Shown here: positions 4,744-58,284 of the stretch, one piece after another
How the letters are laid out: each line of letters opens with the position of its first letter
Position numbering within the stretch: position 1 is the stretch's first letter
Assembly: GCF_015689335.1 (NCBI RefSeq)
Contig: NZ_CP065053.1
Span: 4,216,001 to 4,280,000, forward strand
Origin: Massilia antarctica
GTDB taxonomy: Bacteria; Pseudomonadota; Gammaproteobacteria; Burkholderiales; Burkholderiaceae_D
Direction: 5' to 3'
DNA length: 64,000 nucleotides
The notes under the pieces: generated by a model
The model's input: the letters and a program-made list of their open reading frames with translations, nothing else
What the model was told of the DNA's origin: nothing
Database searches by the model: none
Translations under genes and position numbers: made by a program

Positions 4744-5211
4744 ATGATTATTAAAAACATCATCGTGCGCACTGCAAGCGTTGTGCTGCTCGCATTGGGC
4801 TTGCACAGTTCAGTTTTAGCTGGCGAGCACGGCACTGCTGAAGAAGCGACGGTGCTTGTCAAGAAAGCGGTGGCTTATCTCGAAGCGAATGGCAAGGATA
4901 AGGCGTTTGCCGAATTCAGCAATCCGGCCGGCACGTTCCGGGACCGCGACCTGTATATTTTCGTCATCGACATGAATGGCCTGGAGCTGGCGAACGGCGC
5001 TAATTCCAAGATCATCGGCAAGAATGTGCTCGAACTGAAAGACGCCGATGGCAATGCCATGGTCAAGAATCTTATCGCCTTGGCCAATGGCAAAGGGAAG
5101 GGCTGGGTCGATTACAGCTGGCCTAACCCGATGACGCACAAGGTTGATCGGAAATCCACCTATCTTGAAAAATCCGGTGACGTTCTTGTCGCCAGCGGCA
5201 TCTATAAATAG
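4744..5211 (+). CDS. Periplasmic single-Cache-domain protein
   Basis: 155 residues. A signal peptide (MIIKNIIVRTASVVLLALG, cleavage near SVLAG) is followed by one small Cache-type sensor domain. Its typical features are an N-terminal helix (TAEEATVLVKKAVAYL), a DLYIFVIDMNG strand, GANSKIIGKNVLELKDADG and a closing WVDYSW...KSTYLE block. Such stand-alone Cache proteins are thought to bind small ligands in the periplasm; ligand and partner are unknown. A GGAGA box precedes the ATG. A porin gene follows 219 bases downstream on the same strand. Confidence 0.75.
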   Translation: MIIKNIIVRTASVVLLALGLHSSVLAGEHGTAEEATVLVKKAVAYLEANGKDKAFAEFSNPAGTFRDRDLYIFVIDMNGLELANGANSKIIGKNVLELKDADGNAMVKNLIALANGKGKGWVDYSWPNPMTHKVDRKSTYLEKSGDVLVASGIYK

Positions 5212-5430
5212 CCGCGCCAGGCAATGCCGGCAGCGGTGCCGATTCAATGGCGCGGCGGATTTCTATCCGGATGGTTGGCCGGCCGGTAGCGGCCGGATAA
5301 GCAGATCACCCAGCTCGTCAGGTCATTGTTCCGCGCCACCGTGGCGTCCACGCAGGACATGCCTTGACGGGGCGCCCGCAATGGGAACCCGGCCCCGCCA
5401 AATATTCAACTTATTTGTAAGGAATTACCC

Positions 5431-6474
5431 ATGAACCGATATGTATTCGCCGTGTGCGCAATTGTTTGCAACGTCGCCATGGCGCAAAGCAGTGTCACTG
5501 TGTATGGCGTGGCTGACGCCGGCATCGTCGCGGAATCCGGTGGCCCTGCGGGCAGCGTTACCAAGATGGTGGGCGGTGTGGAAGGTGGATCGCGGCTCGG
5601 CTTTCGCGGCACGGAAGATCTGGGTAGGGGTGTGGCGGCAATATTTGCCCTTGAAATGGGCATCAATCTCGACACTGGTACCAGTGCCCAGGGCGGCGTT
5701 TTGTTCGGCCGCCAAGCCTTTGTCGGCTTGAGCAGTCCGGCTGGCGCCCTGACCCTCGGCCGTCAATATACCCCCCTGTTTCTTTCCCTGTCGGCGGTTG
5801 ATCCCTTTCAAGCATTCAGCACGGCCGGTTCCGCCGCCAATCTGATGTCCAACGCGGGGATCCGGATGAATAACACGATCAAGTATGCGTCCGCGCCGGT
5901 GAACGGCTTCAATGGCGAGCTCGCCTATGGACTGGGCGAAGTCCCGGGCAGTTCAAGGGTGGGAAGGCAGCTCGGCGCGGCGCTGGGCTATGTACGGGGT
6001 CCGCTGAGCCTGCGGCTGGGCTATGCCAACGTCAATAGCATTCCCGTGGGCCCGGCCCCTATGACAACGGGAAAAACGACCATGCTGGGCGGGGTCTATG
6101 ACTTTCGCGTAGTCAAACTCTCCCTCGGTGTCGCCTCGAATAAGGGCACCGTGAATGTGAATACCAGGATCGACCCGAATCCGGCCGCGAAATCGCGCGA
6201 TACGATTCTCGGAGTGACGCTTCCTGTAGGCGCGGGAAATATCAGGGCTTCAGCGGTCTTTAAGCACGACCGCAGCCCGACCGACCGTAACGCCAGACAG
6301 TTGGGTGCGGCTTATAACTATTTCATCTCGAAGCGTACCGACGTGTATATTGCCTATGCGCGCATCCATAACGATGTGCTCGCCGGCGCCACCGGTTTTT
6401 ACACCGTTGGCAATGCCACCGAGGCCGGTAGCGGGAATAAGGCTTTTAATCTCGGCATGCGCCACAGTTTCTAG
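5431..6474 (+). CDS. Outer-membrane porin (Gram-negative porin family)
   Basis: 347 residues, the usual size for trimeric 16-strand porins of Burkholderiales. Signal peptide ending at AMAQ, then the family hallmark SSVTVYGVADAGI and SRLGFRGTEDLG. GRQAFVGLSSPAGALTLGRQ marks the early strands and the protein ends in a C-terminal phenylalanine (LGMRHSF), needed for BAM-dependent insertion. General diffusion of small hydrophilic solutes is the family role; selectivity cannot be read from sequence. AAGGAA precedes the ATG. It may be co-transcribed with the Cache gene, though the 219-base gap allows its own promoter. Confidence 0.9.
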   Translation: MNRYVFAVCAIVCNVAMAQSSVTVYGVADAGIVAESGGPAGSVTKMVGGVEGGSRLGFRGTEDLGRGVAAIFALEMGINLDTGTSAQGGVLFGRQAFVGLSSPAGALTLGRQYTPLFLSLSAVDPFQAFSTAGSAANLMSNAGIRMNNTIKYASAPVNGFNGELAYGLGEVPGSSRVGRQLGAALGYVRGPLSLRLGYANVNSIPVGPAPMTTGKTTMLGGVYDFRVVKLSLGVASNKGTVNVNTRIDPNPAAKSRDTILGVTLPVGAGNIRASAVFKHDRSPTDRNARQLGAAYNYFISKRTDVYIAYARIHNDVLAGATGFYTVGNATEAGSGNKAFNLGMRHSF

Positions 6475-6593
6475 CGCGGATTTCCATCGGCATCGGCACG
6501 TACCTGGCGACGCATCGGGCGCCGGGACATCGTTATCCAGGCCGCGCTGCGGCGGCCCGCTGCACCGCTTGCGTCGGCGTGCCGCCGCGCGCC

Positions 6594-7577
6594 TCATCGG
6601 CTCGCTTCTCCGAACAAGCGGGTCAGCAACTGGCCGAATTTTTCCATCCGGTCGGGCTGGGTCGGTTTGATCACCCCGCGTTCCTGCAACACGGCGATCA
6701 GCTTGACCGGCCCGGTGCGATTGTTGCCCACGATTTCCACATGGCCCGCCTTGACTTCCACGATGCTGACCAGCGGGTCGCTGTCCACGGCCGGGTTGCG
6801 TTGCTCCGCCAGGGAAAAAATCGCATCCGATTCGACGCAGGCGCCGTTGCTCATGCGCCGGCAACTGCCGCTTTCATCGGTCATGATCTTGAGAAAGTCC
6901 GTCACCCTCGGATCGAGCGCGCCCGGCGCGCGGATGAAGGGCGACGTGGCGGTGATTTCCGACCATTTATCGCCCGTGACAATCTGGCAGATCGGTCCGA
7001 CCAGTCCGAGCGAGAGCGTCTTCCAGAGCGGACTGCCGCAATGGCGCGCCGCCGCGATGCCGCCGAACGGTCCCGATACCGTCACCAGGCGCAGTTGGAC
7101 ATCCTTGCCGTCGATGGCATCGGGATGGCTGACGGACATCGCCTTGCGCGCGATCAGGGCACCCTGGCTGTGGCCCAGCACGGTGATGTGCTTGTTGTCC
7201 ATGTTCCGGGCCAAGGCGGTGAGCGCCGTGTCGAGCTGGCCGGCGCTGGCACTCAGGCTGTCGCGGTCGTTGTAAGTGAAACACGCGGTCTGCTGGCCGT
7301 GAAAGGCCAGCACCTGGGCCATGCCACGGTAGCGCCCGGCCGAGCTGAAACAACCATGCACCAGCACGGTGACCGGCTCCTGGGCGTTCAGTTTCAGGGT
7401 GTGGTCGCCGCTGTCGGTGCACTGGCTCAGGCCAGCTATGACCATGCTGACGTTGGCCGGCGGCAGGCGCGAGCCGTCGATGGTCAGCAGCGCCGGCTCG
7501 GCCGGTGGCGGCGTGGCGCAACCCGTCATGAGCCCGAGGGTGGCCAGGGCCACGGCAGCTGCGGGAATTTTCGTCAT
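6594..7577 (-). CDS. Lipoprotein with alpha/beta-hydrolase (lipase/esterase-like) fold
   Basis: 327 residues. A lipoprotein signal peptide ends in the lipobox LMTGC, so the mature protein is lipid-anchored. The hydrolase fold shows VTVLVHGCFSSAGRYRGMA (oxyanion-hole strand) and the nucleophile elbow GHSQGA near residue 145. Substrate unknown; the SSAGRY...AQVLAF region resembles polypeptides annotated as lipase or PGAP1-like hydrolases. The gene ends convergent with the porin gene and is divergent from the solute-binding protein at 7821. Confidence 0.75.
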   Translation of the reverse strand: MTKIPAAAVALATLGLMTGCATPPPAEPALLTIDGSRLPPANVSMVIAGLSQCTDSGDHTLKLNAQEPVTVLVHGCFSSAGRYRGMAQVLAFHGQQTACFTYNDRDSLSASAGQLDTALTALARNMDNKHITVLGHSQGALIARKAMSVSHPDAIDGKDVQLRLVTVSGPFGGIAAARHCGSPLWKTLSLGLVGPICQIVTGDKWSEITATSPFIRAPGALDPRVTDFLKIMTDESGSCRRMSNGACVESDAIFSLAEQRNPAVDSDPLVSIVEVKAGHVEIVGNNRTGPVKLIAVLQERGVIKPTQPDRMEKFGQLLTRLFGEASR

Positions 7578-55546: not shown

Positions 55547-56595
55547 TGACGACCAACCAATTCCTTGCCACACCGCCGCTGCGCGCCGCAGACCAGTTAT
55601 TCACCCTGCGCAACGCCAACGACATGCGCCTGACGATCAGCGAGCGCGGGGCAGCGCTGGTGTCGTGGTGGGCGCCCGACCGCTACGGCAAGGTGGCCGA
55701 CGTGCTGCTCGGCTATCGCGACGCGCACGGCTACGCCGATAACAGCGCCTACTTCGGCGCCGTCATCGGACGCTGGGCCAACCGCATCGCGCACGGCCGC
55801 TTCATGCTCGACGGCGCGCCGGTGCAGGCGGCCGTCAACGACCGCGGCAACCACCTGCACGGCGGCGAGGATGGCTTTCACAAGGCGCGCTGGCAGCTGA
55901 GTGCGTCGGATACCGGGGTGTCGCTGCGCCTGAGCTCGCCCGATGGCGACGGCGGCTTTCCCGGCAAGCTCGACGTGCAGGTGCATTACCGGCTCGATGA
56001 CGAAGGTCGCCTGACGATCGACTTTGAGGCGGTGACCGACGCGCCCACGCCGGTCAACCTGACCGCCCATCCGTATTTCAACCTGAACGGCGGCAGCGCC
56101 GACGTGGGCGACCACATGCTGCAGATCGATGCCGATTTTTACCTGGAGACCGACCAGGGCGGCATTCCGGTGGGCGTGGCGGCGGTGGGCGGCACGCCGT
56201 TCGATTTCCGCCAGCCGGCCGCGATCGGACCGCGCCTGGGCTGGCCGGATGCGCAGATCCGGCTGGCGGGCGGCTTCGACCACTGTTACTGCATCCAGCC
56301 GCACGCGATGGGCCGGGCCGGGCCGCTGCGCGAGGTGGCGCGCGTGGTCGACCCGGGATCGGGGCGCTGCCTGCAAGTGTCGACCACCGAACCGGGGTTG
56401 CAGTTCTACAGCGGTAATTATCTCGATGGGGTGCAGGGCAGGGCGGGACGGCCGTACGCGCGGCACGACGGGTTTTGCCTGGAAGCGCACGCGTATCCGG
56501 ATCAGTTGAACGGCCAGTGCGCGTCGGCGGTGATTCTCAGGCCGGGGCAGGTGTACCGGCAGACCACGGTGTACCGGCTGTCGTTGCAGTCGTGA
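55546..56595 (+). CDS. galM: Aldose 1-epimerase (galactose mutarotase)
   Basis: 349 residues. Interconverts alpha- and beta-anomers of aldoses such as galactose or xylose. GRWANRIAHGRF, GNHLHGG (His), VNLTAHPYFNL (catalytic His) and FCLEAHAYPD (catalytic Glu) are all present; the family ending PGQVYRQTTVYRLS is intact. Co-translated with xylR (TAATG). The last ~130 bases (56461-56589) recur in decayed form at 58157-58284, on the far side of an AT-rich islet, so the 3' end of this gene is an insertion site. Confidence 0.93.
   Translation: MTTNQFLATPPLRAADQLFTLRNANDMRLTISERGAALVSWWAPDRYGKVADVLLGYRDAHGYADNSAYFGAVIGRWANRIAHGRFMLDGAPVQAAVNDRGNHLHGGEDGFHKARWQLSASDTGVSLRLSSPDGDGGFPGKLDVQVHYRLDDEGRLTIDFEAVTDAPTPVNLTAHPYFNLNGGSADVGDHMLQIDADFYLETDQGGIPVGVAAVGGTPFDFRQPAAIGPRLGWPDAQIRLAGGFDHCYCIQPHAMGRAGPLREVARVVDPGSGRCLQVSTTEPGLQFYSGNYLDGVQGRAGRPYARHDGFCLEAHAYPDQLNGQCASAVILRPGQVYRQTTVYRLSLQS
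56461..56589 (+). repeat. Direct repeat copy A (intact 3' end of galM)
   Basis: Matches 58157-58284. Longest exact blocks: TCCGGATCAGTTGAACGG at 56496-56513 and AGTGCGCGTCGGC at 56516-56528. It includes the galM catalytic Glu codon and all but the last codons of the gene. Confidence 0.8.
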
Positions 56596-58156
56596 CCCAT
56601 TCTGTAAATAATTTTTTTAACCACGCAAGGAGCCGGCAAGTTAGTATTGATCGTGTATTTGAGCTTTTCATATATTCGCGTCGTTATCAAAGGCGAAAAA
56701 AGTGTGTCGTGTGATGAATTTAAAACCATTCCATATTTCTTTGAATCTATTGGGTAAGCTCAATTCGGAATGCTTTTAATTTTCATGGACTTGAAATTTC
56801 AATTGTGTTTAGTTAGGGGGGTAAGAAAATAATGCGCGAATTTTTTTCAAGCTATGCACCTTCAAATTTTGATTATCCTAAAATATGGAAGGACGCGTTG
56901 TTTGTAATTGATGCAAACGTGCTATTAAATTTGTATCGATATCAGGAGAAAACGTCAAAGGAGTTTCTTGATCTGTTATTTACTCTAAAGGGACGTGTGT
57001 GGATATCGAACTATGCCGCTCTTGAATTTCATCGCAATCGTTTAAGCGTAATTGCTGATCAAAACCTACGCTTTGGCGAGGTCAAAAAAATAGCAACTAT
57101 GGCATTGGCCAGCGTGGAAAAAGATATGGATGCTCTGCATTTATCAAAAAGACATCGCGCAATTGATCCTGCGGAATTTCTTAATGATTTTAAGTTGCTG
57201 GTGGAGAAGTTCGCCGTAGAGGTGGACGGGTTGGAGCGTAGTAAGCAAGGTTTATTAGGCGAAGACGCTTTGCTTCAGAAAATCTACGAAATATTTGACG
57301 GGAGGGTCGGCGAGCCGTATTCTCAAAAAATCTTGGATGAAATTTACGAAAATGCTGAAATTAGGTATAGGTTGGATATCCCGCCGGGTTATAAGGACCG
57401 TGAAAAAAAAGATCGGTTTAGGCACAATGGCATCAATTACCAAGCTAAATACGGTGATTTTTTGGTGTGGAAGCAATTGCTTGATAAAACGGCAGCGGAT
57501 AACATTAAAAATGTGGTCTTCATTACGGGCGATTTGAAAGAGGACTGGTGGAAAATAGTTGGGCCTGAAAAAATTGGGCCGCGTCCGGAATTGCTCGAGG
57601 AGGCTGCAGCAATAGGTAAAGTCGATGCCTTCCTTATGTATAGACCTGAAGTCTTTTTAGCTCGAGCTAAACATTACGTTGATGCGATTGTTTCCGATGA
57701 GGCGCTTGCTGAGGTAAGAGATGCTAATCTAGCTGCCGCCAGTGAAGGGAATAATTTTGATCTGGTTAAATTCGTCGCAAGCCAAGACCCTCGTGCTGCG
57801 ATTATACAAGCTTGGCTCCATTTTGAATTGGCCGCGATCGAAAGATTGATGAAATTGGGACTTGCGGAGAAAAATGATTCGATCCACGGGAATTCTAGAC
57901 TTGGCCACGCTTTACTTAATTCAAATATTATTAATAAGAAAGAATTTGAGCTCTTTCACGAGTTGCGTGAGCAGCGAAATTGGGCAGCGCATAATGTTTC
58001 CGAAGACGTAGCAATTAGCGTTGCTCTAAATTTCATCCAATCAATCGAACGGCTTGTTGCAGGGTTTATGTGAGTGTGTATTTTTATCGTCTCATCTTTG
58101 GATATTGACGACGGCCCAGACGTCGCCGTTACACATCTCAGGGCAGCGCCGCCTTC
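56590..58156. mobile_element. AT-rich islet between duplicated galM 3' ends
   Basis: About 1.57 kb with GC near 40% by eye, against ~65% around it. The composition breaks sharply at the galM stop and recovers just before the second galM-like repeat. It carries one gene (PIN-HEPN, 56832-58073). No integrase, transposase or inverted terminal repeat was found. The flanking duplication of a gene end is what integration into a gene's 3' end, with restoration of the reading frame, leaves behind. Exact ends of the islet are uncertain. Confidence 0.7.
56832..58073 (+). CDS. PIN-like nuclease fused to a HEPN-like domain
   Basis: 413 residues. The N-terminal ~260 residues are a PIN-like domain (DUF4935/PIN_8 style), with acidic positions in FVIDANVLLNLYR, YAALEFHRNR, and VVFITGDLKEDWW. 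Residues ~300-413 look like a HEPN domain: PRAAIIQAWLHFELAAIERL, then LFHELREQRNWAAHN, which holds the RNase motif RxxxxH with Asn after the Arg. Both halves are predicted RNases, so the protein may be a toxin or abortive-infection factor. AGGGGGG precedes the ATG. Base composition and codon use differ strongly from neighbours. No partner antitoxin lies beside it. Confidence 0.75.
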   Translation: MREFFSSYAPSNFDYPKIWKDALFVIDANVLLNLYRYQEKTSKEFLDLLFTLKGRVWISNYAALEFHRNRLSVIADQNLRFGEVKKIATMALASVEKDMDALHLSKRHRAIDPAEFLNDFKLLVEKFAVEVDGLERSKQGLLGEDALLQKIYEIFDGRVGEPYSQKILDEIYENAEIRYRLDIPPGYKDREKKDRFRHNGINYQAKYGDFLVWKQLLDKTAADNIKNVVFITGDLKEDWWKIVGPEKIGPRPELLEEAAAIGKVDAFLMYRPEVFLARAKHYVDAIVSDEALAEVRDANLAAASEGNNFDLVKFVASQDPRAAIIQAWLHFELAAIERLMKLGLAEKNDSIHGNSRLGHALLNSNIINKKEFELFHELREQRNWAAHNVSEDVAISVALNFIQSIERLVAGFM

Positions 58157-58284
58157 CGGCATGACGGGTTGCCCTAGAAGCTCATGCGAGTCCGGATCAG
58201 TTGAACGGGTAGTGCGCGTCGGCAGTGATTGTTGGTCCGGGGTGGGTGCGCCGGCCGGCCACGGCGTAAAGGCTGCCGCTGCTA
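58157..58284 (+). repeat. Direct repeat copy B (decayed 3' end of galM)
   Basis: Aligns with 56461-56589 without large gaps. The exact blocks are TCCGGATCAGTTGAACGG (58191-58208) and AGTGCGCGTCGGC (58211-58223); between and after these about a quarter of bases differ and no galM reading frame survives. Confidence 0.8.

Follow-up and report, generated by a model that had tools for sequence, protein, structure and literature searches.

A PIN_8 nuclease domain fused to a HEPN domain in a one-gene AT-rich islet of Massilia antarctica: a candidate phage-defence effector

This study focused on the question raised by a single AT-rich gene of Massilia antarctica, namely what kind of protein it encodes and whether that protein may serve in defence against phages. 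The window, by which we mean the whole stretch of DNA analysed, comprises 64,000 nucleotides of contig NZ_CP065053.1 (positions 4,216,001 to 4,280,000). An earlier, sequence-only reading had proposed that one of its frames joins a PIN-like nuclease to a HEPN-like RNase. That frame was recovered exactly, at 56832..58073 on the forward strand, with an ATG start and a product of 413 aa, and the motifs quoted from it lie at residues 25-35 (VIDANVLLNLY), 232-240 (TGDLKEDWW) and 379-388 (REQRNWAAHN). Profile searches and structure models backed the presence of two domains in one chain, and the PIN_8 plus HEPN architecture of the 413-aa protein is near certain. The neighbouring genes, judged by eye from their reading frames, look ordinary. 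The gene and its parts are as follows.

56832..58073, + strand: PIN_8-HEPN fusion protein gene, a single gene of 413 aa (ORF list and profile searches)
56815..56821, + strand: AGGGGGG run resembling a Shine-Dalgarno sequence, 10 nt upstream of the ATG (read from the sequence)
56898..57593, + strand: PIN_8 nuclease domain, residues 23-254 (profile match)
56910..56912, + strand: D27, invariant acidic residue of the PIN domain (66-sequence alignment; residue checked)
57024..57026, + strand: E65, invariant acidic residue of the PIN domain (66-sequence alignment; residue checked)
57456..57458, + strand: D209, invariant acidic residue of the PIN domain (66-sequence alignment; residue checked)
57531..57533, + strand: D234, invariant acidic residue of the PIN domain, within T-x-D-x-K-E-D-W-W (66-sequence alignment; residue checked)
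57774..58061, + strand: HEPN (DUF4145-type) domain, residues 315-410 (profile search and fold)
57825..57827, + strand: E332, conserved acidic HEPN residue (at least 90% conserved in a 59-sequence alignment; residue checked)
57975..57992, + strand: R382-N383-x3-H387, Rx4H motif (R and N invariant, H at least 90%, in 59 sequences; residues checked)

The N-terminal half was matched by PIN_8 (PF18476) over model positions 1-227 of 227, with 200.2 bits against a cut-off of 26.1 (E 5.7e-59), and a PIN fold was seen in the structure model. The earlier assignment to PIN_8/DUF4935-type nucleases was therefore right for PIN_8 (200 bits, PIN fold) and wrong for DUF4935, which we take to be PF16289, named PIN_12 in the Pfam copy used; that profile was unlisted at E 10, ruling out membership of the fusion protein, and it matches 53 of the 66 aligned PIN_8 proteins. 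At position 233 the fusion protein has G, against D in at least 90% of the 66-sequence PIN_8 alignment. PIN RNases are metal-dependent enzymes.

The C-terminal half was less easily placed by general profiles. DUF4145 (PF13643), the only HEPN model listed for the fusion protein at E 10, scored 21.1 bits on the protein against a cut-off of 23.1, and 23.0 bits on the genome (23.7 with the neighbours in frame). A family-specific HEPN profile built without the query gave 67 bits (E 1.7e-20) and, together with the HEPN fold, settled the claim of a C-terminal HEPN domain with an RNxxxH motif. In the full-length model the HEPN part had a pLDDT of about 50, so it was modelled separately with its own relatives; the four-helix bundle of HEPN domains, whose absence the earlier reading had named as evidence against itself, is present in the structure model. 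The sequence R382-N383-x3-H387 has the form Rx4-6H with a polar residue after the R, given in the available text of PMC3710099 as the motif of catalytic HEPN domains. Both domains keep their conserved residue sets intact, and the chain carries two complete-looking, chemically unrelated predicted RNase sites.

The closest HEPN relative found, P0127, is 51% identical over residues 320-404 and is apparently a membrane-anchored protein; it was rejected as a fragment of a fusion and is a separate HEPN protein. Its WP helix was recognised by eye from the description in the available text of PMC3710099. DUF4145 HEPN proteins of this kind, with an N-terminal membrane helix and WP signature, share the HEPN domain and Rx4H motif with the fusion protein, which lacks their membrane part and has the PIN_8 nuclease instead. 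A survey of the HEPN family found 11 matches in 10 other genomes of 329, none of them a fusion, as judged by profile for six (L197, L200-L204) and by frame length, 196-257 aa, for five (L193-L196, L198); PIN_8 was looked for in L189-L191, L197 and L200-L204, and found in none.

The gene stands alone in DNA of distinct composition, flanked by two copies of the end of a mutarotase-like gene, presumably galM:

56461..56587, + strand: 3' end of the upstream mutarotase-like gene, the upstream repeat copy (sequence comparison)
56588..58156, no strand: foreign islet of one gene, low in GC up to about 58100, without antitoxin-like or integrase-like ORF by eye and without Rfam match
58157..58282, + strand: second, degenerate copy of this part of the mutarotase-like gene, bounding the islet on its other side (79% identity in 127 aligned columns)

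The description of this DNA as AT-rich and foreign-looking held up, as its GC content is 0.32-0.51 per 100 bp (56601-58100); elsewhere, in steps of 1 kb, it is 0.52-0.72. At third codon positions the PIN half of the gene has a GC content of 0.407 and the HEPN half one of 0.408, compared with 0.80-0.86 in three other genes of the window that were measured. The equality of these two values suggests that the halves probably arrived as a ready fusion. No plausible antitoxin was seen by eye among the 21 ORFs of at least 25 aa overlapping 56596-58200, nor any integrase-like ORF in the islet. A toxin-antitoxin pair (VapBC, HEPN-MNT) was rejected, as no antitoxin-like ORF adjoins the gene by eye, and a structured RNA partner was rejected as no known RNA family matched the islet (Rfam). 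Consensus promoters (4, against 2.9 in shuffles) and terminators (2, against 2.4) showed no excess over shuffled sequence.

Behind the mutarotase-like gene, six congeners (L034-L039) carry other DNA, differing among them but partly common. By eye, a ketoacyl-synthase-like cluster lies there in two of the six, a transglycosylase-like gene in two and a PKD-like protein in one; in one congener a 37-bp piece of the end of the mutarotase-like gene is repeated about 750 bp downstream. The varied DNA and the leftover 3'-end copies make the stretch look like a recurrent exchange site able to leave such copies. A defence hotspot at this position was rejected, since the six congeners have neither the fusion gene nor PIN_8 there.

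The fusion itself was found once. A genome search gave one match in its own genome, and in the genus the gene occurs in one of 17 genomes, its own. Among GTDB contigs searched for close relatives, 48 pattern matches yielded no confirmed one, and phage records searched for relatives gave no match; with residues 296-413 as the query against the protein database, the query itself was the sole match among 243 candidates. None of the families in PADLOC-DB 2.0.0 (5027 models) matched the fusion protein at E 10. Foldseek searches with the full-length model gave nothing significant against the PDB (best E 0.23, unrelated), and against BFVD the best match was a phage 'PIN like domain' (3e-3, prob 1.00). 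Among the matches listed, PIN_8 (PF18476)/phrog_9788 proteins resemble the fusion protein from residue 1 to about 300, with up to 49% identity and the invariant residues in common, but the fusion C-terminus appears in none of the 119 other relatives listed, in none of them beyond the linker. Weak C-terminal matches, such as P0011 (E 0.0022), mainly span that linker, at about 286-318.

What follows PIN_8 in its relatives was surveyed in 220 distinct PIN_8 proteins, 219 of which have a C-terminus of at least 40 aa (119 from the protein search, in which 120 of 649 relatives were listed, 73 viral, from 80 of 103 loci, 14 plasmid and 13 genomic). BLAST divided the 219 C-termini into 92 clusters, 74 of them singletons and the largest with 98 members; because the proteins were collected as relatives of the fusion protein, these sizes and proportions are biased, and single linkage may separate distant homologues. 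Only one of the 219, the window's own protein, clearly carries this HEPN domain. Two other proteins were considered as second fusions and rejected: L165, with a HEPN profile E of 0.0099 (10 bits, within HMMER inclusion), gave a profile-profile probability of 2.6% (33 columns) and has no motif H in the matched stretch, and the L104 protein, suspected by eye, gave 0.1%. Pfam domains in the PIN_8 C-termini include HNH_2, Mrr_N and a second PIN, with HEPN_RES_NTD1 just under the cut-off, and further PIN_8 proteins have a LuxR-type HTH, a GntR wHTH or IF2_N. When 69 C-termini were scanned alone, most matched nothing.

Two of those 69 PIN_8 C-termini matched the PcrA/UvrD tudor domain (best 6.4e-15), in which these two proteins terminate. 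This domain binds RNA polymerase, which would fit the role of an address module. Other C-termini appear by eye as short tandem repeats, for example EEAIRRSLGVESL (L064, L094, L095, L115, L179); these come from plasmids of Klebsiella (5.2 kb) and Psychrobacter (4.2 kb), from two viral contigs and from one genome contig.

The module of the largest cluster looks by eye like a PD-(D/E)xK nuclease, with a strict PD...ExK pattern in 29 of its 98 members and a looser one in 45; readings of GHKL-ATPase and WP-helix modules were likewise made by eye. In a tree of the PIN part, the fusion protein falls in a clade of 81 leaves (support 0.88), 68 of which carry the largest cluster's module, and HEPN thus probably took the place of that module. 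Its sister in the tree, L018, has yet another C-terminus, and support for the pairing is weak (0.26). As judged from these comparisons, PIN_8 is a constant N-terminal nuclease domain whose C-terminus has been repeatedly exchanged.

PIN_8 genes are sparsely distributed: samples of 392 genomes from the family, 398 from the phylum and 369 from the class had them in 15, 16 (14 above the cut-off) and nine (eight above the cut-off), respectively. These samples overlap and include the own genome. Relatives are also encoded in 59 plasmid records and 103 viral contigs. Of the 13 strong genomic hits other than the window's own, 12 were examined in their loci with long flanks, and in every one of these the PIN_8 gene was lower in GC than its locus, by only 0.01-0.02 in two. 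One PIN_8 gene, on a Halomonas plasmid (L093:5995-7280), is split across two frames.

For the role of toxin or anti-phage effector that had been proposed earlier, the support comes only from where some of these relatives sit. In 16 of the 59 plasmid records (the first eleven, H1-H11, and five further down the list), annotation placed a restriction, methylase, Abi, SIR2 or pore-forming-effector gene near PIN_8 in eight; seven were without such a defence neighbour by annotation and one was without annotation. At the same 12 genomic loci, PADLOC matches at E 1e-60 or better within 3.5 kb of PIN_8 fell on four apparently different genes (Drt8, HEC-05, MTase_II and PDC-S59) among 88 ORFs, against none among the 112 ORFs beyond 3.5 kb (best 2e-38), where ORFs were of at least 90 aa, chosen by a longest-first rule, and the near-set matches listed were 25 of 65 families. 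The MTase_II match may be an ordinary prophage methylase. In the far set at E 1e-10, PADLOC matched nine families, several of them, by our own reading, housekeeping paralogues.

HEPN genes near PIN_8 were sought by Pfam in ten neighbouring proteins picked by eye, and another neighbour sample consisted of ten genes likewise picked by eye. On a Bacillus velezensis plasmid with phage genes (L104), a DUF4145 HEPN gene at 5161-5748 (DUF4145 1.9e-12) directly precedes the PIN_8 gene at 5977-7158; the domains that are joined in the window's protein thus stand there side by side as separate genes. There were sub-threshold HEPN matches near PIN_8 in L084 and L087, and in L121 our own HEPN profile gave a match (E 9.6e-4) close to the PIN_8 gene. 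The gene at L084:4762-6522, near PIN_8, is possibly the Drt8 reverse-transcriptase match (1.1e-145), an assignment that was guessed.

We know of no phenotype for any PIN_8 protein of this set. A literature search, with most subscription papers and all preprints outside its scope, found no paper naming PF18476 and none with PIN_8 and HEPN together, and its matches for PIN_8 in bacterial defence were, by title, on plant, auxin and other unrelated subjects. The nearest precedents are eukaryotic Swt1 and the bacterial system DS-3. As described in the available text of PMC3710099, Swt1 has an N-terminal PIN followed by a HEPN, the domain order of the window's protein, and its describers suggested in 2013 that it originated in a bacterial defence system; the likeness is one of domain order, and its HEPN belongs to another family (Abi2/Swt1) and was judged inactive and RNA-sensing. 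The DefensePredictor system DS-3 is a single PIN protein without antitoxin, proposed to be self-inhibited, whose phage defence was validated in 2026 and lost on active-site mutation; compared by description only, it differs in that its PIN is split between the N- and C-terminus, and the available text of PMC13092281 mentions no HEPN in it. DS-11, a one-protein CBS-HEPN system also validated in phage defence in 2026, needs its HEPN catalytic residues and resembles the fusion protein in joining HEPN to a partner domain, although that partner is a ligand-binding CBS domain and not a second nuclease (PMC13092281, as available). According to the accessible parts of two surveys of BREX and Dnd systems, PIN and HEPN RNases occur there as auxiliary effectors (PMC12839542, PMC10853773).

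The reading that we prefer, and to which we give about an even chance, is that the gene came by horizontal transfer and encodes a nuclease effector that needs no partner gene, most likely a phage-defence protein of the abortive-infection type. In its favour are the two domains with their active-site residues, the exchange of C-termini, the mobile settings and defence neighbours of some relatives, and the precedents of DS-3 and DS-11. Against it weigh the ordinary-looking neighbours of the gene, the G at position 233, the single occurrence of the fusion, the seven plasmid regions without an annotated defence neighbour, the far-set PADLOC matches at E 1e-10, and the lack of any significant PADLOC or Foldseek/PDB match for the whole protein. 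As no antitoxin gene was seen in the islet, the protein must restrain itself, and its fold or its state of assembly would hold it inactive. HEPN domains are typically dimeric, according to the available text of PMC13092281, and the HEPN domain would accordingly pair two chains. On infection, the C-terminal module would sense or bind a trigger, either phage or host RNA, releasing the PIN (metal-dependent) and HEPN (metal-independent) RNases; these would cut tRNA or mRNA, and growth would stop before the phage matures. HEPN would in this way both pair the chains and cut RNA. That the C-terminus is exchanged suggests that it sets the time or the place of action of the constant PIN_8 nuclease, and the modules of the relatives would then be different sensors or address labels for that nuclease.

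The main rival to this proposal is that PIN_8 is the sole effector and that HEPN, without cutting, binds RNA or dimerises as a sensor that aims or gates it, as was proposed for the inactive HEPN of Swt1. PIN_8 is indeed constant and the C-terminus variable, the HTH, Mrr_N, UvrD tudor and IF2_N modules resemble binding domains more than nucleases, and the HEPN of Swt1 was judged inactive and RNA-sensing (PMC3710099, as available). However, the HEPN of the fusion protein, unlike that of Swt1, keeps R382, N383, H387 and E332, and other exchanged modules are themselves nucleases (HNH_2, PIN). We regard this alternative as less likely than the preferred reading.

A role in stabilisation or addiction, or in some other RNA metabolism of mobile elements, would suit the PIN_8 genes found on small plasmids (5.2 kb in Klebsiella, 4.2 kb in Psychrobacter) and on many viral contigs, and PIN toxins (VapC) mostly come paired with an antitoxin. 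We consider it improbable here, as no antitoxin-like ORF is seen by eye beside the gene, which forms a lone islet without a maintenance partner. Least probable, and in our estimate very unlikely, is a decaying or accidental chimera without present function. The single occurrence of the fusion, the G for D at position 233 and the degenerate flanking repeat would agree with decay, but the 413-aa frame is intact, every invariant residue of both domains is kept, third-position GC is equal in the two halves and the Shine-Dalgarno-like run is in place.

Taken beyond this locus, and with confidence that falls somewhat short of even, we propose that PIN_8 proteins may be a polymorphic class of immune effectors, each encoded by one gene, that has so far gone unrecognised, and in which a constant PIN nuclease is combined with exchanged sensors, binders or second nucleases. 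The variant in the window would combine it with a catalytically complete-looking HEPN, so that a single chain, in the domain order of Swt1, would hold two unrelated kinds of RNase chemistry. If this is true, PIN_8, as found on plasmids, on viral contigs and in chromosomal islets, would become a testable defence family with a design rule of constant nuclease plus swapped address module, and the 92 C-terminal clusters would each be a candidate for a sensor of infection. In that case the variant with HEPN would be a bacterial example, with its motif intact, of the PIN-HEPN layout that has been suggested to have reached eukaryotes in the form of Swt1.
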